Assembly (NCBI GenBank): GCA_905116865.2
Contig: CAJHNH020002042.1
Coordinates: 20,001-84,000 of the forward strand
Reading direction: 5' to 3'
Source: Candidula unifasciata
Lineage: Eukaryota > Mollusca > Gastropoda > Stylommatophora > Geomitridae
DNA length: 64,000 nt
Below are positions 17,771 to 48,215 of the stretch, piece by piece. Position 1 is the stretch's first letter; each line of letters begins with the position of its first letter. Position numbers and translations under genes: made by a program. The notes under the pieces were generated by a model, which did not search any database, was not told the DNA's origin, and was given only the letters and a program-made list of their open reading frames with translations.

Positions 17771-17774
17771 AGTA

Positions 17775-20700
17775 GTTAAACAGTGGGGAAACTGGTTGCA
17801 GTTAAACAGTGGGGAAACTGGTGGAAGTTAAACAGTGGGGAAACTGATGGCAGTTAAACAGTGGGGAAACTAGTGGTAGTTAAACAGTGGGGAAACTGGT
17901 GGCAGTTAAACAGTGGGGAAACTGATGGCAGTTAAACAGTGGGGAAACTGGTGGAAGTTAAACAGTGGGGAAACTGGTGGAAGTTAAACAGTGGGGAAAC
18001 TGGTGGAAGTTAAACAGTGGGGAAACTGATCGCAGTTAAACAGTGGGGAAACTAGTGGTAGTTAAACAGTGGGGAATCTAGTGGCAGTTAAACAGTGGGG
18101 AAACTGGTGGCAGTTAAACAGTGGAGAAACTGATGGCAGTTAAACAGTGGGGAAACTGGTGGAAGTTAAACAGTGGAGAAACTGATGGCAGTTAAACAGT
18201 GGGGAAACTGGTGGAAGTTAAACAGTGGGGAAACTGGTGGAAGTTAAACAGTGGGGAAACTGATGACAGTTAAACAGTGGGGAAACTAGTGGTAGTTAAA
18301 CAGTGGGAAAAATGGTGGCAGTTAAACAGTGGGGAAACTTATGGCAGTTAAACAGTGGGGAAACTGGTGGAAGTTAAACAGTGTGGAAACTGGTGGAAGT
18401 TAAACAGTGGGGAAACTGGTGGAAGTTAAACAGTGGGGAAACTGATGGCAGTTAAACAGTGGGGAAACTAGTGGTAGTTAAACAGTGGGGAATCTAGCGG
18501 CAGTTAAACAGTGGGGAAACTGGTGGCAGTTAAACAGTGGGGAAAATGGTGGCAGTTAAACAGTGGAGAAACTGATGGCAGTTAAACAGTGGGGAAACTG
18601 GTGGAAGTTAAACAGTGGGGAAACTGGTGGCAGTTAAACAGTGGGGAAACTGGTGGCAGTTAAACAGTGGGGAAACTGATTGCAGTTAAACAGTGGGAAA
18701 ACTAGTGGCAGTTAAACAGTGGGGAAACTGGTGGAAGTTAAACAGTGGGGAAACTGGTGGCAGTTAAACAGTGGGGAAACTGATGGCAGTTAAACAGTGG
18801 GGAAACTGGTGGAAGTTAAACAGTGGGGAAACTGGTGGAAGTTAAACAGTGGGGAAACTGGTGGTAGTTAAACAGTGGGGAAACTGGTGGCAGTTAAACA
18901 GTGGGGAAACTGGTGGCAGTTAAACAGTGGGGAAACTGGTGGAAGTTAAACAGTGGGCAAACTGGTGACAGTTAAACAGTGGGGAAACTAGTGGCAGTTA
19001 AACAGTGGGGAAACTGGTGGAAGATAAACAGTGGGGAAACTGGTGGAAGATAAACAGTGGGCAAACAGGTGGCAGTTAAACAGTTGGGAAACTGATGGCA
19101 GTTAAACAGTGGGGAAACTGGTGGCAGTTAAACAGTGGGGAAACTGGTGGCAGTTAAACAGTGGGGAAACTGGTGGCAGTTAAACAGTGGGGAAACTGGT
19201 GGCAGTTAAACAGTGGGGAAACTGGTGGCAGTTAAACAGTGGGGAAACTGATGGCAGTTAAACAGTGGGGAAACTAGTGGAAGTTAAACAGTGGGGAAAC
19301 TGGTGGAAGTTAAACAGTGGGGAAACTGGTGGAAGATAAACAGTGGGGAAACTGGTGGAAGATAAACAGTGGGCAAACAGGTGGCAGTTAAACAGTTGGG
19401 AAACTGATGGCAGTTAAACAGTGGGGAAACTGGTGGCAGTTAAACAGTGGGGAAACTGGTGGCAGTTAAACAGTGGGGAAACTGATGGCAGTTAAACAGT
19501 GGGGAAACTGGTGGCAGTTAAACAGTGGGGAAACTGATGGCAGTTAAACAGTGGGGAAACTAGTGGAAGTTAAACAGTGGGGAAACTGGTGGAAGTTAAA
19601 CAGTGGGGAAACTGGTGGCAGTTAAACAGTGGGGAAACTAGTGGCAGTTAAACAGTGGGGAAACTGGTGGAAGTTAAACAGTTGGAAAACTGGTGGCAGT
19701 TAAACAGTGGGGAAACTGATGGCAGTTAAACAGTGGGGAAACTGGTGGAAGTTAAACAGTGGGGAAACTAGTGGCAGTTAAACAGTGGTGAAACTGGTGG
19801 CAGTTAAACAGTGGGGAAACTGGTGGCAGTTAAACAGTGGAGAAACTGATGGCAGTTAAACAGTGGGGAAACTGGTGGAAGTTAAACAGTGGGGAAACTG
19901 GTGGCAGTTAAACAGTGGGGAAACTGGTGGCAGTTAAACAGTGGGGAAACTGATTGCAGTTAAACAGTGGGGAAACTAGTGGCAGTTAAACAGTGGGGAA
20001 ACTGGTGGAAGTTAAACAGTGGGGAAAACTGCAGTTAAACAGTGGCAGTTAAACAGTGGGGAAACTGGTGGAAGTTAAACAGTGGGGAAACTGGTGGCAG
20101 TTAAACAGTGGGGAAACTGGTGGCAGTTAAACAGTGGGGAAACTGGTGGAAGTTAAACAGTGGGGAAACTGGTGGCAGTTAAACAGTGGGGAAACTGGTG
20201 GCAGTTAAACAGTGGGGAAACTGGTGGCAGTTAAACAGTGGGGAAACTGGTGGCAGTTAAACAGTGGGGAAACTGGTGGAAGTTAAACAGTGGGGAAACT
20301 GGTGGAAGTTAAACAGTGGGGAAACTGGTGGCAGTTAAACAGTGGGGAAACTGGTGGAAGTTAAACAGTGGTGGAAAACAGTGGGGAAACTGGTGGCAGT
20401 TAAACAGTGGGGAAACTGGTGGCAGTTAAACAGTGGGGAAACTGGTGGCAGTTAAACAGTGGGGAAACTGGTGGCAGTTAAACAGTGGGGAAACTGGTGG
20501 CAGTTAAACAGTGGGGAAAACTGGTGGCAGTTAAACAGTGGGGAAACTGGTGGCAGTTAAACAGTGGGGAAACTGGTGGCAGTTAAACAGTGGGGAAACT
20601 GGTGGCAGTTAAACAGTGGGGTGGAAGTTAAACAGTGGGGGAAACTGGTGGCAGTTAAACAGTGGGGAAACTGGTGGCAGTTAAACAGTGGGGAAACTAG

Positions 20701-22584
20701 TGGCAGTTAAACAGTGGGGAAACTGGTGGAAGTTAAACAGTGGGGAAACTGGTGGCAGTTAAACAGTGGGGAAACTGATGGCAGTTAAACAGTGGGGAAA
20801 CTGGTGGCAGTTAAACAGTGGGGAAACTGGTGGCAGTTAAACAGTGGGGAAACTGGTGGCAGTTAAACAGTGGGGAAACTGGTGGCAGTTAAACAGTGGG
20901 GGTGGCAGTTAAACAGTGGGGAAACTGGTGGCAGTTAAACAGTGGGGAAACTGGTGGAAGTTAAACAGTGGGGAAACTGGCAGTTAAACAGTGGGGAACT
21001 GGTGGCAGTTAAACAGTGGGGAAACTGGTGGCAGTTAAACAGTGGGGAAACTGGTGGCAGTTAAACAGTGGGGAAACTGATGGCAGTTAAACAGTGGGGA
21101 AACTGGTGGCAGTTAAACAGTGGGAAAACTGATGGCAGTTAAACAGTGGGGAAACTAGTGGTGGAAGTTAAACAGTGGGGAAACTGGTGGCAGTTAAACA
21201 GTGGGGAAACTGATGGCAGTTAAACAGTGGGGAAACTGGTGGCAGTTAAACAGTGGGGAAACTGGTGGCAGTTAAACAGTGGGGAAACTGGTGGAAGTTA
21301 AACAGTGGGGAAACTGGTGGCAGTTAAACAGTGGGGAAACTGGTGGCAGTTAAACAGTGGGGAAACTGGTGGCAGTTAAACAGTGGGGAAACTGGTGGCA
21401 GTTTAAACAGTGGGGAAAACTGGTGGCAGTTAAAACAGTGGGGAAACTGGTGGCAGTTAAACGGTGGGGAAACTGGTGGCAGTTAAACAGTGGGGAAACT
21501 GGTGGCAGTTAAACAGTGGGGAAACTGGTGGCAGTTAAACAGTGGGGAAACTAGTGGCAGTTAAACAGTGGGGAAACTGGTGGCAGTTAAACAGTGGGGA
21601 AACTGGTGGCAGTTAAACAGTGGGGAAACTGGTGGCAGTTAAACAGTGGGGGTGGCAGTTAAACAGTGGGAAACTGGTGGCAGTTAAACAGTTAGTTAAA
21701 CAGTGGGGAAACTGGTGGCAGTTAAACAGTGGGGAAACTGGTGGCAGTTAAACAGTGGGGAAACTGGTGGCAGTTAAACAGTGGAAGTGGCAGTTTTAAA
21801 CAGTGGGGAAACTGGTGGCAGTTAAACAGTGGGGAAACTGGTGGCAGTTAAACAGTGGGGAAACTGGTGGCAGTTTAAACAGGCAGTTAAACAGTGGGGA
21901 AACTGGTGGCAGTTAAACAGTGGGGAAACTGGTGGCAGTTAAACAGTGGGGAAAACTGGTGGAAGTTAAACAGTGGGGAAACTGGTGGCAGTTAAACAGT
22001 GGGGAAACTGGTGGAAGTTAAACAGTGGGGAAACTGGTGGAAGTTAAACAGTGGGGAAACTGGTGGCAGTTAAACAGTGGGGAAACTGGTGGCAGTTAAA
22101 CAGTGGGGAAACAGTGGCAGTTAAACAGTGGGGAAACTGGTGGCAGTTAAACAGTGGGGAAACTGGTGGCAGTTAAACAGTGGGGAAACTGGTGGCAGTT
22201 AAACAGTGGGGAAACTGGTGGTAGTTAAACAGTGGGGGAAACTGGTGGCAGTTAAACAGTGGGGAAAAATGGTGGCAGTTAAACAGTGGGGAAACTGGTG
22301 GAAGTTAAACAGTGGGGAAACTGGTGGCAGTTAAACAGTGGGGAAACTGGTGGCAGTTAAACAGTGGGGAAACTGGTGGAAGTTAAACAGTGGGGAAAAC
22401 TGGTGGAAGATAAACAGTGGGGAAACTGGTGGCAGTTAAACAGTGGGGAAACTGATGGCAGTTAAAACAGTGGGGAAACTGGTGGCAGTTAAACAGTGGG
22501 GAAAACTGAATGGTGGCAGTTAAACAGTGGGGAAAACTGATGGCAGTTAAACAGTGGGGGGAAACTGGTGGCAGTTAAACAGTG
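17775..22584. repeat. 26-bp satellite array, about 185 copies
   Basis: The unit gttaaacagtggggaaactg plus gtggca or variants is 26 bp. Monomer classes differ at the last six positions (ggtgga, ggtggc, gatggc, agtggt). The first about 2.25 kb keeps strict 26-bp register; from about 20028 insertions, deletions and truncated units are frequent. No long ORF. Located between the two genes. Confidence 0.97.
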
Positions 22585-30255: not shown

Positions 30256-30723
30256 TTCTCTGTTCCCCCCCCCCCTCCCCCCCCCCCCTGTTGTTGAAGA
30301 AGCTCTACTTTGTTACATGTCTTGATTACAAATAGTTTCTTGTCTTCTCTAATTGCATTGCTCACTTTTGTCATTTGGCTTTTGTCAGAATTGTTTCTTG
30401 TCTTCTTTGATTGCATTTCACACTTTCGTCACTTGGCTTTGTTAGAATTGTTTTTTTTTTGTCTTCTCTGATTGCATTTCTTACTTTCTGTATGTTGCTT
30501 TTGTGCATTGTGATATTATTTCTGCATTTGTTTACTTTCATTAGGTGACATCTCATGCTGAACTGCCTTCAGTTTTTCAGACTTATGTTTCCCTCTTGTA
30601 TTGTACTCAGATGGTATGGGACATACATCAAAACGAATTGGGTGTGTTCGTTTTGTAAAAAAAAAAAAAGTTTTATACACTCACACAAAAGTAAAACATG
30701 AATTTACACATTTAACCACCCAT

Positions 30724-31122
30724 TTAGCAACAGAAGAGAGCTTCTGTGTTCTCCAGGCTTAAAAGAGTTTCTATATGTGTAAGGCACTTCTCTTTAAGTT
30801 GAGATAAGCTTTGGTTCTCCAATGCCAGATTATGAACATTTTCTGAATAAAATGTATTTAATGTTGTCACTAACCAATCCAAATCTGTATAATTCAGATG
30901 AAGAGAAATGGACACCACATGCCCTTTCTCAATGTTTATCTCAGTGTTTAATGTGCAAACATGTCCTCGGAATTCATGCCCTGAAAATGTTCGATGAAGT
31001 GAAAACTTTGGTGTCTTCCCATATATCCAGTTCCAGGACTTCAGTCGGCTTAGAATATCTTTGATGCCAGGGAATTCTGCTTCATTTATTGGGTTGATGA
31101 AATGAGCATTTTGAGGAGTCAT
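30724..31122 (-). CDS. LIPT1: LIPT1 terminal coding exon
   Basis: The acceptor is tcctgaacag, followed by 132 codons and TAA at 30726-30724. FINPINEAEFPGI and WIYGKTPKFS are typical of the lipoate-ligase C-terminal accessory domain. The internal ATG at 31122 is only the first codon of the exon. Confidence 0.95.
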   Translation of the reverse strand: MTPQNAHFINPINEAEFPGIKDILSRLKSWNWIYGKTPKFSLHRTFSGHEFRGHVCTLNTEINIEKGHVVSISLHLNYTDLDWLVTTLNTFYSENVHNLALENQSLSQLKEKCLTHIETLLSLENTEALFCC

Positions 31123-34100
31123 CTGTTCAGGAGATAGGAGAAATATAAAATTATGTATATATAAAAAAATATTTAAAAAATTGGTGCTTGTGTGTGTGTG
31201 TGTCCAAAAAATGAATACAACATAACCACTTGACATTCATCTGCTTGTCTAACCTCTATTACTGACATGTTGGTCTACACAACAGCCAGTCTATCACTCA
31301 CATACTGGTCTAGTCTATGGTTATTCTATCACACACATGCTGGTCTACTCTACAACCAGTCTATCATACTCACATGCTGGTCTAACTCTACTGAAAGTCT
31401 ATCAGACTTATTTGCTGGTCTAAACTACAGCCACTCTATCACACTCACATGCTGGTCTATTCTACAGTGATTCTCTCACACACTCACATGCTGACCTACT
31501 CTACAGTCAATCTATCACACACTCACATGCTAGTCTATTCTACAGTCAGTCTATCACACACTCACATGCTAGTCTATTCTACAGTCAATCTATCACACAC
31601 TCACATGCTAGTCTATTCTACAGTCAGTCTATCACACACTCACATGCTGGTCTATTCTACAGTCATTCTATCACACACTCACATGCTAGTCTAAACTACA
31701 GCCAGTCTATCATACACTCACATGCTGACCTACTCTACAGTCATTCTATCACACACTCACATGCTGACCTCTAAAGCCAGTCTATCACACTCACATGCTA
31801 GTCTAAACCACAGCCAAGAAAAGGTATAAACCCAAACGAAAAGTATATTAGCAAGCTTCACAATATAACAAATACAAACAAAACGTGAACCTTGCGGCTA
31901 TTGAGCCTTCATCAGAACATACACATTAAACTACAGCCAGTCTATCACACTCACCTGCTGGTCTATCTGCTGCAGAAACCTCTGACCTATGACATCCACC
32001 AGGAGTTCAAAGGTCATATCCAGGGCTTTCTCTTTCAAATTTAGCACAGAAGAAGGGACACTTTTGGTGGCTTTGCTATCCACACCATGCTAGCAGACAA
32101 AGCACAGTCAAGTATTTATTACAGTAAAGAATGTTAAAAAAAAAACAGTAAAGATCTCTTTATACACCTGTGGCAAATCAGGCATATAAGGCTAGACATA
32201 TGTGTATAGACCAGTCGGTTCTTGATGGATGATGTGGACATCATGTCAATTACAGTACAGTAGGACATCCGGCATGGTGAATTGCAGACTGCAAGATGTC
32301 CAGGTAGGCCTCAACTACAGTATAAAAATCTATGCATATAGGACATGAATGAACAGGTATTGAGCTAGATTTGTGGGAACAGAATGACATGAACTGTGTT
32401 GCATTAAGGGGGTACATTAGAAAGGGAGTAGGAAGTATGGAGAAAAATGACTGCAGACAGGTTAACAGCTGAGCATCTCAGAACAGAGAAGAAGCACATT
32501 AAACGCATGGAGTCGCAACAATGTTCCTGAAATTCCCTGGTATAACTGTGGAAGACTATTTTTAATGTGAGCGGGTCTTGCTAGTCGTGCTCACCATTAC
32601 CATGGGCAGTGATTCTCATGCTCCCCTATAGAACAAAGTAACACTATCATCTGGAAAGATGGAAAGGTGCCAGCAAGCTAGCAAGTAAATAAATGATTCT
32701 TTACATAGTCTGTAAAAACAAAAAAAATGTACCCATTTGAGTGCTGGTTACAGTACTGGACCTGGGGGTTACTCCCTGATGATCTCCACAGGGTGCAGCA
32801 TGTGACAATTCCTTGGAGGAGCCCAGGAGCAGAGTGTCATCTGTCAGCTCTTTTATGGAAGCCTCCTTAGATGGCAGAGAATGCCCATGATCTGCCCCTG
32901 TCTTCCCCTGAGGAGTCTACACAAGGTTACCCTAGATGGGTTCTTTAGAAGAACACAAGTAGATAAAGGGATAGAGAGGACATTACACAAATTAGGTCAC
33001 ATCATGTTTCCAGGAAACAAAGTTGGATATGTCAACCAAGGCCATCTCCAGGATGGGCCAAGACGCTCTTCCAGTCAGCTTTGAATCAAGGGCGAACAAA
33101 AAGTGTAGTTTTTCCGAGTGAAGTGGACCTGTCATTTTTACATGTGTAGTTAGTTACCTTGCTTTCAATTTACATTTTCAGAAGAAAAAAAAAAACTGCT
33201 GTAAGTTGTTAAGTGTTATTGTACTAGCTCTTGCTCATGCACAAGCAACATAGACTGTTGTCTAGGAGTCAGGTTCACAGATCAGGTGAGGTAGACTTCT
33301 CTTCTGACAAACTACCAAACGTCTCCAAATGACAGTCGACGGGGGTTAGCTTCAATTCCATATTTATTCACAACACCACATAAGTGACAAGAATTAACAT
33401 TACAGCCTAACACTTACGCCATCCAGGCAGTGAGAAGGACACCTTTATTGTCCTCAGCTGTACTTCAATATGGTTGTGCTACAACCACTTCACAGCTTTC
33501 ACTCCTTGCCATTCAGTATCAACGTTCACTCCATTTTACCCTGGATTAACTTTCATTCTTATCTCTCTGGGGTCCTGTCAAAGAATGACTTCCTAGTCAG
33601 CTGTTCCCCCCAGACCTCAATTTCCCAGGTGAGCTCACACAATTTGGTGTTTCGCCATTCTCAAGTCGACTTTATGCCTCTCAATCTAGAGACTTACCCA
33701 GTTCTGCCAACCAGTCAAACCCCTTACACTATATCTATTTTTAGCATCACTACAGTTATTAACTTTACCTGTGAAGGGTTCAGTACCTCAAATTATTGAA
33801 TTATGATACTTGCAGTGGATATATGTTAAGAGAAAAAATGGCTAAAATCAGTTTCAATGAAAAATAGGACACCTGGAAAAACCAGTGCAGTTTGCGTGAA
33901 ACATTTTCTTACGTCTGATTTAGTCAGTCCCCACTTCACACCCATCCCTCTAACAAAAATTCCAGAATTTATTATTATTACTTTTAATGAAGGAACTAAT
34001 ACATTTTAGGAAGATAAGATTATAAAAGCCTATTAACTATATACATCATACTAATTAATTAAAATGTTTTTCTCTGGTTTTTCTTTTTAGTTTGTATATG

Positions 34101-37100
34101 TGTATATACCTCGAGCTTATTTTTATAAATTTATGTGTGATGATCACTCATGCGACCGCCGGGAACACACAAAAAAAAAAAACCAGGACTGTCAGAGTGA
34201 AAATGGGAGGTATCGTTAGCCCAGTGGTGACATCACATCAAGCTGATCTCATCAGCCCCACAGTCCATGTTGGAAACAGCATTGTGTTGGCTGAAGGGTG
34301 CAAACATCGCAGTTTTCTATAAACCGGCATAATGCAATTAAATTATGTCAGTCGGACAAATGAAATGAAGAAAAAGATGAGGGAAACTCATATCAGTTTG
34401 CAGAGTAAGCTAAGGAAACTGGAGATTAGAACAACACTGGTTCCAGACTGTTGCATGAGCTCCTACCACGAGTTTCGTGTGTCTTTTTCAAGATATTTGA
34501 AAAATGTAATACCATAGGAGAATCCAAAAGTCTGCTCAGTCGGGATGTATCCACATCAAACAACAAAGTGAAGTGGTGAAAACTCTGGGTCCGCCCCAGT
34601 TTGGCTGCTGTTCCTGAGACCTGGTGAAAGAAAGAACCATCAATGAACACACTGAATAACTAATAAATAAAGCGCTAGAACAGAAAATAACTACATGTGA
34701 AATGCATTGTCTTTGCAAGGTCACTAACAACACAGAAAGAGACATGGTTACAAATGACAGCATCAGGGAGACAGTTGGAATAAGACCATGTCTGGTTTAT
34801 ATTGATAGACAAAGAATAAAATGGTTTGGCCATCTAGTGAGAATGCAGCCAAGCCAGACTGCATATGAGACTTTTCCCAGCAGAATATCTGGCAGGAAGG
34901 CAAGAGGGAGACCAAGAAAGATATATGGTGAGGCTGATACCTGCAAAAAGATGAATTAATCCATCACTCAAGCCACCTGAGAAGCGCAAGAGCCACGTCA
35001 CTGGGCTACAACAGAGTCAGTGAGACAACAAAAGAAGAAGAAGTGGATAACTCTCTTGGCAACAGAAAGAAAATTGTGTACACAAGAGACTGCTATATCC
35101 ACACACATGGTAGTGCACCAGGATCACGGCTTATACTGCCTAAGATCTATCTGAATATCTCTGGGGTTATCCTAGAAAAATAGGTTTTGAACCAGGTATC
35201 TGGCCAACTTAGATAGGATCAACGTTTCCAGAGCACATCTGCCTGCGTCAATGAACCAACAGTCTGCACACAAAGAAGTCAGATCTGTAAAATAGATGTG
35301 CATACAAAACCTAAGTCTTGGAACAAAACCAAAGTCCAGAAGTGAATGAACAACCAGAACTTTCTGTCAGAGTTAACAGCCAGTGAGCCCAACCAGCAAG
35401 AAAATAGCACAACTAAACACTAGCAAGAATTTATAAGTATACAAAAAGGGGCCAAGTTAGCACAGTCAATAGGAGACTCGCTTTCAAATCCAGCTGTGAC
35501 TCGCTGCAGCCCACAGCCAGTGTTTGAAACCGGGTGGTTCCCGGGTTCACCCAGCCTCTAGGAAATAGGTTGTGTCCGTGGTTTAGGAGTCCAACTCGTA
35601 ATTTAAACGTACTGCAGTCAAAACCTATTGCTGGCTGCATGGATTTTTATCATGGTATGGGGCGTACCCAGCCTAAAATTGTTACCAGGATGTATGTCCT
35701 GGGGAAGTAAAGACGGCTGGCGTTATGCTGATCAGATTACCCACCTAGTGCCAATTAGTCTGTAAAAATATAGGTGCTCTTCCCATTCACCCAATTCGCC
35801 TGAAAGGCATGAAAAGGGATCTTATTATTCTATATTTTTCTAGGAAATGGGTACCAGAGTTAACGTTTTGGGGAAATGGAGGAACGTCGCTGCAGCTACA
35901 GAGTTGTAGACAGTTTCTTATCGGCTGTCCATACTGGTGGCAGAGCACTTATGATTTACAACCGTGTGCAGTGACGCTGGTTCACATCTCCCGACTTTAT
36001 CTAAGAATATAAGACAACTCTCGACTATGCGCAAGAAATGGAAATTTAATAACAAATCCAAATTTAGTTTACTGAGAAGTTTCAGGCTGCTTGTTCTTCT
36101 GCATAGATTCAAATGCTGGATACAGAGTTGGAAAAACAAAAGACACATAGCTGGGCTGTAGACGTGGAAAAAAAATCTTTGTGAAAGGAGAGATGAAAAA
36201 ACATTTCTGACTTGTGCCCACCATTGGCAGTTCTGCCCCTGCCTCTCTTTCCTAAATTAAAGCCTCCATTACTGGGTTTTTTCCTCCAAGTTTTTGGGTG
36301 TTATTTCAACAGTGTGTTGAAGAAAAGATTGTTTCTCTCTCTCCTCTGATTTTTGTTCCATTCAACAATTCTCTCCCCACCAATGCATAAACTGTCATTC
36401 ACCATGAATAATACAGCTTTTCCCCCTGTCTTTTCTAATGTAAACAATCTTTACTTACTTTATAGAAATGGTCCAACAAGATATCATCACGATCGTTAAC
36501 GATCAAATCCAGATCCCACCTTGTCTTCACAGCATCCACGACAAGGTGAAGGTTTTCCTTCCGATTGTACCGGAGACGGGATTTCAGAAAAGACAAATTG
36601 AGATTTCCTTCATCATGGTAGACTGTTCCCCCTCCACTACATCTGTTTTTAAAAAAAGATGTTGATGGGTTTAAAAATGAGAGGATCGACTTCATTACTT
36701 AATCGCTTCTCTTCTACCATGGCGTGCAGAGGTTTCCCTGAGAGCTCATCAGACTTTTCTCTCTCTCTGCCTTTTTTTGTTTGGCTCTGCTCCATTCCAG
36801 TCCTCTGTCAGTCATGGACTGTTGGATGTTGTCTTTCCAGCGGACACTAGGTCACCCTGGAATTTTAGTTCCCTGGTTCTTGGCCTCCCATGTGCGCTGT
36901 GCTGGCCAGTTCTCTCCCATCATGCATACATGTCCAAACCATCATAACTGAGACTGATCCACTTGTAACTCAACTTCATTACACTGGGTTTTATCACAAA
37001 TGACTCAGTCTCTCTCAGCAGTGTGTCTGGCCACCAGCTGAGGATGCCACCCAAAGCACAAACTCTGTAGCTTTAGTGACAATCACTAAGAATCTATGTA

Positions 37101-39273
37101 AAACTGCCCAAAAACAAATCCATGACCTTTAGAATCTGAGGCAAATAGCCTGACACTTCGCCATGGAGATCCCCAAGTTTAAAAAAAAAAATCTGATTTC
37201 CTGCTTCATTGTTAACAGTTTTGATTTCTACAAGATTTCACAAAAACAGTCAGAATTCCTGTTATCTCTATGTAAAGATGATCTGCAGTAAAGTGTCGTT
37301 AGTGCATTAAGTTAACAGGTCAGTGATCATAGTTCAACAGGGCAGGATTCACTGTTCCAGTCAGTATAGCTCTGAGGTCAACTCAGGGTTAAACAAAATA
37401 GTTACCACATAATTTCAGAATTGCATGGAATCCTTCTTCTTCTTCTTCTGCACAAGTCCTCTTTTTTATAATCGTCATCCCCATGTGGGATGCAATTTTT
37501 GTGTTATTTGAAGCCCCACCCTGGCTTCTTCCCAGGGCCCTGAATATAGCCAGGGCATAGATATGGCCTAGCCATAGATATGGCCCAACAGCTGAATGGG
37601 GTTTCTGGGACCTCTCCATGGTGATTCTCATCCGCATGGTGGCACTTTGTGTCACCAGGTGTTTATCACTTGGGTGATGTCCTGGTGGGGTACAACTACC
37701 TACCTTCCTAGTCTTGTTCTGCCTGTCAGCATCAGAAGAGAGCCTTAGTATGTGCTCCGTAGAGGCTGGTATTTATGGCCTCAGATATCCATCTATCCAA
37801 CTCTGATTCTAATGTGTCTAAGTGACAGGGCTCTCAGTAGTGGTAGTCTTGATGCATGTCTGAACCATTCGATTACTAAATTTTTATGGAAAGGAAAAGG
37901 CGATGTGGAATGGCACTCACCACCTTACAGGCCTAACATATTCACACAGAAATTAAAATATCTGCCTTGGGATGTCTTTATCTTTTCCACATTGGATCTC
38001 AAAAACTTTCTATCTCTGGCTCTCAGAGCATATACTGACAGACTGTTGTCTGACCTCTTGAAGTTACTGAGCCACTTGTATCATAGTCTACTTCTTGCTT
38101 AAGTGTCTTCAAAATGGATTTCACAAGAATGTCATGTCCTTTAATAAGCTCAATATATTTTATGGTCTCTTGATTCTTCCATCCACTCTCTTTTCATTCC
38201 CCAGGACTGGATTTACAAGAATGCACGCTGGTGATTGCTTTACCGAGGGCTTTTACTCTAGAATTTAAAAGTGCCGGTACTCATCACAAAGCATCTATTA
38301 CAACTTTACTGAAAAAAATTATGTCTGGAAAATGGTGGCAGTACTGCGTACCATTGCGTCCTGCCAGAAAAGATTCCTGGCTCCACCTTGGTTTCTGTCA
38401 TTACATATATATATATAAAGTGTGTGTGTGTGTGTGTATTTGATTTTCCTAAATCTCAATTTATCATTTATCTTCTTCATCCTCCTCTTCTTCTGAGTTA
38501 ACTCAAAAAAAAAGCCAAAAAAAAAAAAAGAGTGGTTTGCAAGTTGTGTTCTAGTTTACAGCCAGGAAACGATATCCGCACCTTTCAGCCCAATACATCC
38601 AATTTCAAACACTTAATTTGTCGTCTCAACATGTTTGCTGGGAGCAGTGGGTATATTCTGTTTTTTGTTTCTTTTTTTCGCCCATGTGGTAATATTAACT
38701 ATCTTTCTCAATGTATATTTTTCATGTTGTTCAATGCATTTGTTGACACTGTTAGTTTCTACTTTTTTGTTTTCGTTTTGTTTGAGCTTGTGTAATACAA
38801 TGTGTTACTGATGACAGCTTGTGAACAATATGTGTTTATACATGACAGTGTTTGCAATATCACAGTGTGTGTAAAAACATAATGAAATAAAGCAATAGCA
38901 AAAACATTCCAGACAACAAAAGTACTGTCAATCAGATGATAAACAAAATTCCCCACTCTTACCTTCTGGCTATATCCACACCATCCGTGGATGCCAAAGG
39001 GATATTGACTTCTAGCCATGGATTCTGATGTCGGCCAAAAACAACTGCTGGTTTATTTCTCCACATCAACAGATAATCTGTGTCGGAGAAATCTGTCTTC
39101 TCGTACATCCACTCCTCCAGTGCTAAGTTCTCGTAAATACTGTCTGAAGTTGAGATCAGCACGACTCTATTGGCTGCACGTGAAGCACTTGTTGAACTTG
39201 CCCACCTGAAGTAGCAGCTCTTTGTAAACCTTCTAAAGTTCGTACAGCCCCATGAGGATTTTATCAAATACAT
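30724..39273 (-). CDS. LIPT1: Lipoyltransferase 1, mitochondrial (lipoyl amidotransferase), complete five-exon gene
   Basis: LIPT1 moves lipoyl groups onto the E2 subunits of mitochondrial 2-oxoacid dehydrogenases. Coding exons on the minus strand are 39273-38963, 36642-36459, 34620-34513, 32089-31955 and 31122-30724. All junctions are GT-AG and in phase, giving 378 codons plus TAA, close to the family's usual 370-odd residues. The start is ATG at 39273; the open frame continues upstream only through a TTG codon. Residues 1-35 are Arg/Ser/Lys-rich and lack acidic residues, as expected for mitochondrial import. Motifs in order: SIYENLALEEW (46-56), VVFGRHQNPW (77-86), ARRCSGGGTVYHD (102-114; lipoate-binding loop), K165-VSGTAAKLGR (substrate lysine region) and WIYGKTPKF (about 278-286). 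No frameshift or internal stop is present. Intron 4 contains a minisatellite built from the exon 4 donor. Identification is firm. Confidence 0.96.
31260..31960. repeat. 39-bp minisatellite in LIPT1 intron 4 derived from the exon 4 donor
   Basis: The plus-strand unit is ctattctacagtcagtctat plus cacacactcacatgctagt. The right end of the array runs into the true exon 4 / intron 4 junction, whose plus-strand sequence (cagtctatcacactcac|ctg...) is the unit itself. About 15 units. Confidence 0.92.
31812..31930. repeat. Repeat family H, inside the intron 4 minisatellite
   Basis: ggtataaacccaaacgaaaa, caagcttcacaatataac and gagccttcatcagaacatac. A related copy is at 48105-48215. It splits the unit nearest the real splice donor. 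Confidence 0.7.
31955..32089 (-). CDS. LIPT1: LIPT1 coding exon 4
   Basis: This 45-codon exon starts HGVDSKATKSVPSS and ends IDQQ. The acceptor is gtctgctag and the donor is a perfect CAG|GTGAGT. It matches the family's S-x-A-T-x-S-V-P segment after the lysine motif. The last 12 nt of the exon recur in the minisatellite downstream. Confidence 0.92.
32205..32345 (-). repeat. SINE-C-like fragment, in LIPT1 intron 3
   Basis: gtatagaccagtcggttctt and gatgtggacatcatgtcaa resemble the SINE-C 3' end. Confidence 0.5.
33256..33800 (-). mobile_element. Possible second LTR, far end not found
   Basis: tgttgtctaggagtcagg at 33256 resembles the terminus of the LTR at 28985, and a minus-strand AATAAA lies at a similar distance inside (33368-33363). 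No matching end or target duplication was found, so this is tentative. Confidence 0.3.
34513..34620 (-). CDS. LIPT1: LIPT1 coding exon 3
   Basis: The acceptor is ctttcaccag and the donor is GTATTA. The 36 codons start VSGTAAKLGR, the conserved KxSGTAxKxGR motif once joined to the Lys ending exon 2, and end LLDSPM. Confidence 0.94.
34690..35040 (+). mobile_element. LINE C-terminal fragment, in LIPT1 intron 2
   Basis: RQRIKWFGHLVRMQPSQTAY and GRKARGRPRKIYGE are typical of LINE ORF ends; the tail is gaagaagaag. Confidence 0.8.
35225..35410 (+). repeat. Repeat family A copy
   Basis: gaaccaacagtctgcacaca and aagtccagaagtgaatgaac. Confidence 0.8.
35445..35820 (+). mobile_element. tRNA-derived SINE, with SINE-C 3' half
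   Basis: The head aagttagcacagtcaatagg and gctttcaaatccag are tRNA-like. The tail ggggaagtaaagacggctgg and gtctgtaaaaatataggtg matches SINE-C. Confidence 0.65.
36459..36642 (-). CDS. LIPT1: LIPT1 coding exon 2
   Basis: The acceptor is ttaaaaacag. The first base A completes AGA (Arg), giving RRCSGGGTVYHDEGN. It ends ...DHFYK with donor GTAAGT. Length is 184 nt. Confidence 0.94.
37490..37720 (-). repeat. Repeat family E copy, in LIPT1 intron 1
   Basis: gtgttatttgaagccccacc, ggtggcactttgtgtcacc and gtcctggtggggtacaac: reverse complement of 24030-24240. The preceding cttcttcttct suggests a LINE or SINE tail. Confidence 0.75.
37725..37880 (+). repeat. Dispersed repeat pair with 59040-59230
   Basis: tatgtgctccgtagaggctg, tatttatgg and gacagggctctcagt recur in order at 59070-59200. 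Confidence 0.55.
38268..38395. repeat. Dispersed repeat, copy 2 (pairs with 1-120)
   Basis: gtgccggtactcatcacaaa and gtactgcgtaccattgcg match the start of the window. Confidence 0.5.
38963..39273 (-). CDS. LIPT1: LIPT1 coding exon 1
   Basis: Begins at ATG MYLIKSSWG and ends AG|GTAAGA, leaving two bases of an Arg codon. It codes the presequence and the conserved NLALEEW and FGRHQNPW segments (103 codons plus 2 nt). Confidence 0.93.
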
Positions 39274-41199: not shown

Positions 41200-41440
41200 C
41201 TTTCTAATGTGTTGTATACACTGATCTTCCTTTATTTTGTTCCAGAACCTGAGTTTGTGTTGCATGCATATCCGTTTAACAGATCTGATTTAACTGTATG
41301 TATATTGTTGGTTCCTTGCCTCTCAGGCAAATGCACTCTTCAAAGAAATCTCCAAATTAATCGACTCTTTTGACATGCTTGTTGCGCAGGCAGTGGGTCT
41401 ATTCTTGTTTGTCCCCACAATGGGGCCCTAGAACCCACAT
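41200..41440 (-). repeat. Repeat family A copy
   Basis: gttccagaacctgagtttgt, ttgttggttccttgcctctc and gacatgcttgttgcgcaggc. Its right part is included in the tandem duplication. Confidence 0.8.
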
Positions 41441-42047
41441 GGGATGAAGAGAAGCTATTTAAATTAGAATCCAACAACTACAAATCCCAGAAAACAAATT
41501 CAACCCCATCTGTCTGTATTTAGTGCCTGTACTTACCAACTGTGGCAGCCTGAGGTTTTAGGGCCACATGGATTTTTATGTTTGCCCTAATAGAAAAATA
41601 CTCCATACCTGATCGAGGATTGAACAAGGGTTTCCAGCATGACAGCACGGGGCACTATATCCGTTTAACAGATCTGATTTAACTGTATGTATATTGTTGG
41701 TTCCTTGCCTCTCAGGCAAATGCACTCTTCAAAGAAATCTCCAAATTAATCGACTCTTTTGACATGCTTGTTGCGCAGGCAGTGGGTCTATTCTTGTTTG
41801 TCCCCACAATGGGGCCCTAGAACCCACATGGGATGAAGAGAAGCTATTTAAATTAGAATCCAACAACTACAAATCCCAGAAAACAAATTCAACCCCATCT
41901 GTCTGTATTTAGTGCCTGTACTTACCAACTGTGGCAGCCTGAGGTTTTAGGGCCACATGGATTTTTATGTTTGCCCTAATAGAAAAATACTCCATACCTG
42001 ATCGAGGATTGAACAAGGGTTTCCAGCATGACAGCACGGGGCACTAT
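41268..42047. repeat. Tandem duplication of 389 bp, two copies with no difference seen
   Basis: Every landmark checked (tccgtttaac at 41271 and 41660; ggcactat at 41651 and 42040) is shifted by exactly 389 bp, and the lines between read the same. The copies meet at a short ata/tat microhomology. Confidence 0.93.
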
Positions 42048-44262: not shown

Positions 44263-44691
44263 GGGGTTTCGGCTCTCCTTTCAACTACGGCCGGTAGACA
44301 ACAGCAGACGGACGGTTAGTCGCAGTTCTGTCCCCTGGCTACAGAATTACGGACTGGAGAAGGCACGAATGTGGGTTAGGTTTAGGGTTAGGTTCAGGGT
44401 TAGGGTTTGGGTTGCTACTTTGAGTTTGTGCGAAGACGAGATGCGGCGACACTAACCGTAACCCTAACCCTAAACCTAACCCACACCCTACCCCCAACCC
44501 AAACCGTCTGATCATAGCAGGGCAGTGCACGCTGCCTATCGCCAACACACAGTAATTATGTCATTTGTTTCGTTTCCTCCTGTCCAGTCCGTAATAGCAC
44601 TGCAGCCAGGGGACAGAACTGCGACTAACCGGCCGTCTGCTGTTGTCTACCGGCCGTAGTTGAATGAAAGTGAAAGGAGAGCCGGGGTTTC
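44263..44691. mobile_element. Foldback DNA element with 8-bp TSD and telomere-like interior
   Basis: GGGGTTTC flanks both ends perfectly (44263-44270, 44684-44691). Long arms start at 44271 (ggctctcctttc) and end at 44683 (gaaaggagagcc), sharing cggccggtagacaacagcag. The right arm has about 10 extra bases. The interior holds degenerate TTAGGG words at 44375-44415 and CCCTAA words at 44455-44510, in mirror orientation. Confidence 0.88.
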
Positions 44692-48000: not shown

Positions 48001-48104
48001 CTAGTAGCCTTGATGAAAGCCACAATGCAGTAAAAAATCAGCCGGATACAGTTTACTGTGTTGGAAAATGCTTAGCATTTTCAAGAACCAAACTATCATG
48101 GAAA

Positions 48105-48215
48105 GATATAAAACCGAAGGAAAAGTAGATTTAGCGAGCTTCAGAATATAACAAAACAAACGAAAGTGAACATTGTGCAACAGAGCCTTCATCAGCACAT
48201 ACACAAATCAACAAA
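48105..48215. repeat. Repeat family H, copy 2
   Basis: gatataaaaccgaaggaaaa, gagcttcagaatataac and gagccttcatcagcacatac match 31812-31930. Confidence 0.7.

Follow-up and report, generated by a model that had tools for sequence, protein, structure and literature searches.

Intron 4 of the LIPT1 gene of Candidula unifasciata contains a minisatellite that most likely grew out of the exon 4/intron 4 junction. We therefore read the array as a splice-donor 'mirage' seeded from this junction, and consider it probable that it is a neutral by-product of a minisatellite-dense genome and, most likely, harmless. The window, i.e. the whole 64-kb stretch of DNA that was analysed, corresponds to G000:C2041:20001-84000 in a Candidula unifasciata assembly of 1.34 Gb, and the coordinates of its relevant features are collected in Table 1.

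Table 1. Features of LIPT1, its intron 4 array and the SINE-like element; positions are those of the window, and a slash marks the exon/intron boundary.
Feature	Position	Strand	Remark
LIPT1 exon 1 (coding)	38963..39273	-	five-exon model
LIPT1 exon 2	36459..36642	-	five-exon model
LIPT1 exon 3	34513..34620	-	five-exon model
LIPT1 exon 4, 135 nt, starting and ending in phase 0	31955..32089	-	gene model; protein identical to P0001
LIPT1 intron 4, 832 bp	31954-31123	-	
LIPT1 exon 5, acceptor cut 31123/31122	30724..31122	-	
True 5' splice site CAG/GTGAGT, cut 31955/31954	31949..31957	-	
Unit 0, junction copy, 12 exon + 28 intron bases	31927..31966	-	38/40 identical to unit 10; 95% over 40 in whole-genome search
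Minisatellite array, units 34-39 bp, 12 GTGAGT decoys	31295..31805	-	degenerate tail to ~31250
SINE-like dispersed insert, 111 bp, 5'-truncated	31816..31926	-	recurs genome-wide at 90-100% identity
Target-site duplication, exon-side copy GGCTGTAGTTTA	31927..31938	-	
Target-site duplication, array-side copy GGCTGTGGTTTA	31804..31815	-	11/12 matching
SINE-like element, second window copy	48102..48205	-	83% identical

The five-exon model of LIPT1 encodes a protein of 378 aa that shows 100% identity to the public Candidula protein P0001, and the closest solved relatives of this protein are lipoyltransferase 1 and lipoate-protein ligases. The public annotated protein joins exon 4 at the true donor. 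RNA-seq introns and transcripts went into the published Candidula annotation (PMC8496239). At the 3' end of the gene the annotated protein ends in ENTEALFCC, while by eye an alternative frame from ~30740 (30720-30745, minus strand) reads LSSVAKWVVKCVN and resembles the Bradybaena C-terminus LSFAQWVIKCVD; there is thus an apparent one-base frame difference, which is either genuine or an assembly error.

On the minus strand exon 4 ends in ATAGACCAGCAG, followed by GTGAGTGTG in the intron (in a longer reading of the intron side, GTGAGTGTGATAGACTGGCTGTAGTTTA); the last exon base is 31955 and the first intron base 31954. These last 12 exon bases are the codons I D Q Q and form the exon half of unit 0. 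TRF assigned to the array a period of 39 and 13.5 copies. The first bases of its 12 GTGAGT motifs lie at 31794, 31760, 31721, 31682, 31643, 31604, 31565, 31526, 31487, 31448, 31373, and 31301, and the motif is preceded by CAT in 11 cases and by TAT in one. When the 15 units downstream of the true junction were aligned at the donor position, GTGAGT was kept in 12, and position -1 was occupied by T in 14 copies, by A in one and by G in none. The alignment thus bears out the original prediction of roughly a dozen successive donor-like sites in which T has replaced the -1 G.

The junction itself is identical to unit 10 at 38 of 40 bases, to the other units at between 29/38 and 36/40, and to the last, degenerate unit at 13/16. 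Unit 1 and units 10-12 have the short form of the junction, and units 2-9 carry two extra bases. A search of the 1.34-Gb genome with the array found one full copy of it in the assembly; the best non-self match was its own junction (95% over 40 bases, E 2.8e-8), and two further, weaker matches were obtained on contigs C73 (74%) and C1760 (68%). E-values are inflated in tandem-on-tandem matches, and common descent of the C73 and LIPT1 arrays is not claimed. Sliding a 37-mer without gaps over the window gave 36/37 at the junction and at most 22/37 elsewhere outside the array; since this 37-mer was composed from array units, the pairwise figure of 38/40 is less circular. A 39-mer scored the junction no better (24/39) than another place (24/39), because the junction unit is two bases shorter. 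The derivation of the array from the junction, which the original prediction had proposed and for which it had suggested an alignment of unit and junction, is supported by this likeness. A dispersed repeat family was considered as the source of the unit and rejected, since apart from itself and its own junction the array has matches only on C73 and C1760, both of them weak; the C1760 repeat (L004) was in turn discarded as a relative, being a repeat of another sort.

The original prediction overlooked that the junction unit is separated from unit 1 by a SINE-like insertion. When the insert is left out, the distance from the true donor to the first decoy is exactly 37 nt, i.e. one unit, and the array must therefore formerly have been unbroken up to the exon. 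A first look at the genome gave 1988 candidate copies of the insert, and scoring of the best 40 resulted in 41 matches with 90-100% identity, self included. At the 29 insert loci read, the matches stop within a few bases of one 3' point, and a 5' continuation is common to most flanks. Because of this common 3' end and the shared 5' continuation at other loci, the LIPT1 insert looks like a 5'-truncated SINE. The SINE-like element (L006-L034; window 31816-31926) also carries CTGATGAAGGC...GCC, which is reminiscent of a hammerhead-ribozyme core; Rfam at gathering cut-offs gave 0 matches over the window.

Tandem repeats over exon-intron boundaries, called mirages, are known from the amphioxus genes for Adh3, troponin C, globins, and PGBD5, with units of 10-72 bp in Adh3 and 150-160 bp in the globins, and the two reports discuss them as a lancelet feature (PMC3087553, PMC3902484). 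Amphioxus mirages and LIPT1 have in common repeats that span the boundary, units of tens of bases, splice signals within the copies, and use of the outermost copy. With the SINE-like insert left out, the outermost LIPT1 unit spans the exon-intron boundary; many, though not all, units keep the splice signal (GTGAGT in 12/15); and the unit of 39 bp, like those of 40, 45, 49, and 57 bp at the other loci described below, lies within the unit range reported for amphioxus. On the other hand, the snail cases come from a mollusc and not from a cephalochordate, and those read are on the donor side only, while LIPT1 further differs from the amphioxus mirages by decoys that lack the -1 G and by an array divided by a SINE-like insert. 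For earthworm metallothionein, minisatellites are described in the first intron, with no link to a junction in the text seen (PMC12783039). Our search of the literature on minisatellites, introns, and splice junctions, including molluscs, gastropods, and snails, found no mollusc mirage in a coverage of mainly open-access papers. The LIPT1 array thus appears to belong to the mirage type and would, as far as the literature was searched, be new for a mollusc.

Two further systems bear some likeness to LIPT1. Judging by its title, a paper from 1995 reportedly describes a human minisatellite as the source of multiple splice donors in 6-16 (IFI6), a transcript induced by interferon. The likeness suggested by the title lies in the repeated splice donors; however, the donors of the 6-16 repeat are, again by the title, in use, whereas the LIPT1 decoys are putative ones. 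Introns are also said to be gained through tandem genomic duplication of AGGT. There, as in LIPT1, a tandem duplication copies a splice signal, but in LIPT1 the intron was pre-existing, and no new acceptor or intron was seen.

The strength of the decoys was assessed with a matrix of donor base frequencies and with U1 duplexes computed by ViennaRNA. With this matrix the true site scored 13.0 bits, 11 decoys 8.9 bits and the remaining decoy 6.7 bits, and the other real donors of LIPT1 reached 10.2, 7.9 (exon 2), and 0.7 bits (exon 3). Duplexes with the 5' end of U1 had energies of -11.7 kcal/mol for the true site and of -5.1 or -5.0 kcal/mol for the decoys. The decoys are therefore weaker than their competitor but, seen against the gene's own donors of 7.9 and 0.7 bits, not weak in general. 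If exon 4 is run on into the intron, it reads VSVIDWL and then a stop, i.e. seven codons, before any decoy is reached. As the stop precedes every decoy, the use of any of them would be expected to have the same damaging effect. No acceptor-like pyrimidine tract that could support micro-exons was seen by eye in the LIPT1 unit.

It could be argued that the ladder is functional, with decoys that compete for U1 and a number of units that sets how LIPT1 is spliced, so that part of the message would be truncated or degraded. The 12 GTGAGT sites would fit such a role, as would the fact that, with the donor matrix, only three of the 389 other GT sites tested in the LIPT1 introns reach the score of the decoys. 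We nevertheless regard a functional ladder as unlikely: the true donor comes first and is stronger, the RNA-seq-informed annotation uses it, the GTGAGT columns of the unit alignment are kept no better than several other columns, and other genes of this genome have ladders with an intact -1 G. Moreover, amphioxus mirages are reported as leaving splicing undisturbed (PMC3087553, PMC3902484). Most likely, then, the decoys would be near-silent passengers.

Junction-anchored arrays recur in other genes of the same genome, which the original prediction did not mention. The genome was scanned for three AGGTGAGT at 20-50 bp spacing, and this gave at least 100 places, comprising by eye ~20 arrays, on contigs up to C126. 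The upstream flanks were read for 10 of the ~20 arrays among the matches listed, and three of the 10, C45, C66, and C76, were anchored to an exon by homology; this is no rate, because C45, C66, C76, and C117 had been picked for coding-looking units. It should also be noted that the search pattern behind C45, C66, and C76 itself required AG/GTGAGT. No evident exon was found in the upstream flank of the arrays on C21, C25, C36, C44, and C117, and the flank on C6 was ambiguous. By their sequences, genes for UDP-glucose dehydrogenase (C66), a mitochondrial carrier (C76), and a UPF0020-type methylase (C45) appear to have junction-anchored arrays like that of LIPT1, and a kinesin gene (C73) probably has the same arrangement. 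On C45, C76, and C73 the listed array starts with the donor of the exon itself.

The exon on C66 that ends in NLPEVAAYWQQ matches UDP-glucose 6-dehydrogenase (2.7e-16, 30 of 32 residues identical), with a Pfam score just below the cut-off. Its 57-bp units consist of ~43 exon and 14 intron bases, and the true 9-mer CAGGTGAGT is repeated exactly in six of the nine downstream donors seen. The unit length of this array (L074:627-1201) is a multiple of three, and one frame reads as ~19-residue repeats VSDVCECLNLPEVAVYWQQ over several units; this frame is not kept across the initial spacings, which are 62 and 59. On C76, the exon ending in SMPVDIAKTR matches the mitochondrial carrier family just below the Pfam cut-off (E 1.4e-4, profile positions 5-32, 22.0 bits against 22.3 bits), its tail is repeated in a 45-bp unit, and another carrier exon (profile 48-94) follows ~3 kb downstream on the same strand. 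On C45, an exon-like frame ending in GPTTLRATICYNMLR is followed by a 49-bp array. For this exon no PDB match was obtained at E up to 1, and Pfam gave only an unrelated sub-threshold POX match (E 0.18); the assignment therefore rests on the sole PF01170 (UPF0020) match that the genome search found, which lies ~370 bp beyond the last listed unit. The C73 locus, which is also the weak match to the LIPT1 array, has a 40-bp donor array (L003, L035), and its first donor closes PAGFTTSEGSMDISEEFFSASDNNGVCVTNP, an open frame that looks like an exon and lies ~12 kb past the motor exons of a KIF6-like gene. This frame had no Pfam match and is absent from Bradybaena P0121. In 13 of the 27 units on C73, A replaces T at +2, a decay on the intron side.

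The -1 G was kept in each consecutive unit seen at these loci (10/10 on C66, 10/10 on C76, 5/5 on C45, and 26/26 on C73). The CAG to CAT change is therefore not needed for a ladder to exist or to be tolerated. It does set the decoys apart in LIPT1, as originally predicted, but not at the other four loci, and CAT before the donor seems to be peculiar to LIPT1 among the arrays compared.

Arrays with a period of 10-200 are dense in this genome: 30 were found in the 64-kb window, of which they cover 10.3 kb, while a 93-kb stretch of C73 contained 45. The fraction of points that lie inside the unit at one given array edge was 1.2% in both stretches, or 0.85% (window) and 0.78% (C73 stretch) for arrays of at least three copies. 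At such a density many donors would be caught by chance. The genome has ~125,000 introns, taken as 147,783 CDS pieces minus 22,464 genes from the genome description (PMC8496239). Chance placement alone would put ~1,000-1,500 donors in an edge unit, and for the four introns of LIPT1 the chance is 3-5%, with a null that comes from the two stretches and ignores any bar to arrays in exons. A search of the genome for the donor pattern in threes gave 4782 matches, against 4310 for the pattern read backwards, the matches being overlapping and dominated by large arrays.

Alternatively, arrays might start preferentially at donors, seeded there by R-loops, U1 binding or the purine-rich donor sequence. 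Four genes with junction-anchored arrays after little searching are in line with such targeting, yet the sample was picked by donor content, many cases are already expected from the array density, and the 4782 matches, overlapping and mostly from large arrays, are no clear excess over the 4310 backwards. We thus find targeted seeding improbable. In view of the density expectation and the lack of a clear pattern excess, a neutral by-product is the simplest view.

The direction of change was assessed by an alignment of LIPT1 proteins from 15 gastropods. The IDQQ columns are filled without a gap in Bradybaena (VDQQ), Arion (VGAQ), Physella, Lymnaea, Elysia, and Biomphalaria, and gaps of 1-4 residues in this region occur in seven of the 15, namely Aplysia, Babylonia, Nucella, Littorina, Gigantopelta, Haliotis, and Patella. 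Because of these gaps, conservation of the exon 4 end is limited to the nearer species. In them the exon half of the unit appears to have been coding for a long time, which makes the junction the most likely source of the array. The reverse, in which a pre-existing array reached the exon and its edge became coding sequence, would agree with the position of the junction at the array edge; however, Candidula has no additional codons relative to Bradybaena, Arion, Physella, Lymnaea, Elysia, and Biomphalaria, and no other strong match to the unit came up in the genome search, which makes such a capture very improbable. A chance likeness between the junction and an unrelated repeat, although some shared letters come from the donor consensus and the weak matches on C73 (74%) and C1760 (68%) show that such arrays can resemble each other, is ruled out for practical purposes by the 38/40 match to unit 10, which falls into register with the period once the insert is omitted, and by the E of 2.8e-8 in the genome search.

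For the LIPT1 array, seeding from the junction probably proceeded as follows. A tandem duplication of ~37 bp, comprising the last 12 bases of the exon and the first 25 bases of intron 4, would have been the seed, and growth would have taken place towards the intron, which tolerates extra copies. Since the exon half of the outermost copy is coding, this copy would have remained the donor in use. The expanding copies presumably carried the -1 G to T change, a founder effect, and two additional bases may have turned the inner units into units of 39 bp. The inner copies may later have been homogenised, which fits the two extra bases in units 2-9. The SINE-like element would then have inserted into the first repeat, moving the remaining units 123 bp away from the real donor. 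Near-silence of the decoys is probable, since the real site exceeds them in strength, precedes them and, together with the upstream acceptor, defines the exon; whichever decoy was used, the message would meet one and the same stop after seven intron codons. The recurrence of junction-anchored arrays in this genome would follow from its high density of minisatellites.

Mirages in at least four genes of one snail suggest that minisatellite-rich genomes may produce such arrays routinely. It is conceivable, and we put this forward tentatively, that donor mirages are pervasive in land-snail genomes, with hundreds to more than 1,000 in each, many of them with decoys as strong as the true donor and with splicing intact. 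If this is true, this genome would be a natural large-scale test of the fidelity of the spliceosome to the first donor of an exon. With perfect decoys directly behind the true donor, such arrays would be suited without further preparation to tests of how donors are chosen, of cryptic splicing, and of the growth of introns. In annotation, exon ends that are repeated in an array are likely to give rise to spurious exons and spurious alternative donors.

Some other repeats were observed along the way. Towards the C-terminus of the predicted LIPT1 of Nucella lapillus (P0011), SSGTHSLQE is repeated in tandem and in frame, which perhaps reflects another minisatellite inside or beside an exon. In the window, a 4.8-kb array at 17774-22584 has a 26-bp unit in more than 180 copies, and a 389-bp sequence at 41268-42047 is present in two tandem copies with 100% identity, being either a very recent duplication or an assembly artefact. 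Telomere-like repeats, GGGTTA (44373-44413) and CTAACC (44452-44505), face each other within the contig over a span of 44373-44505.
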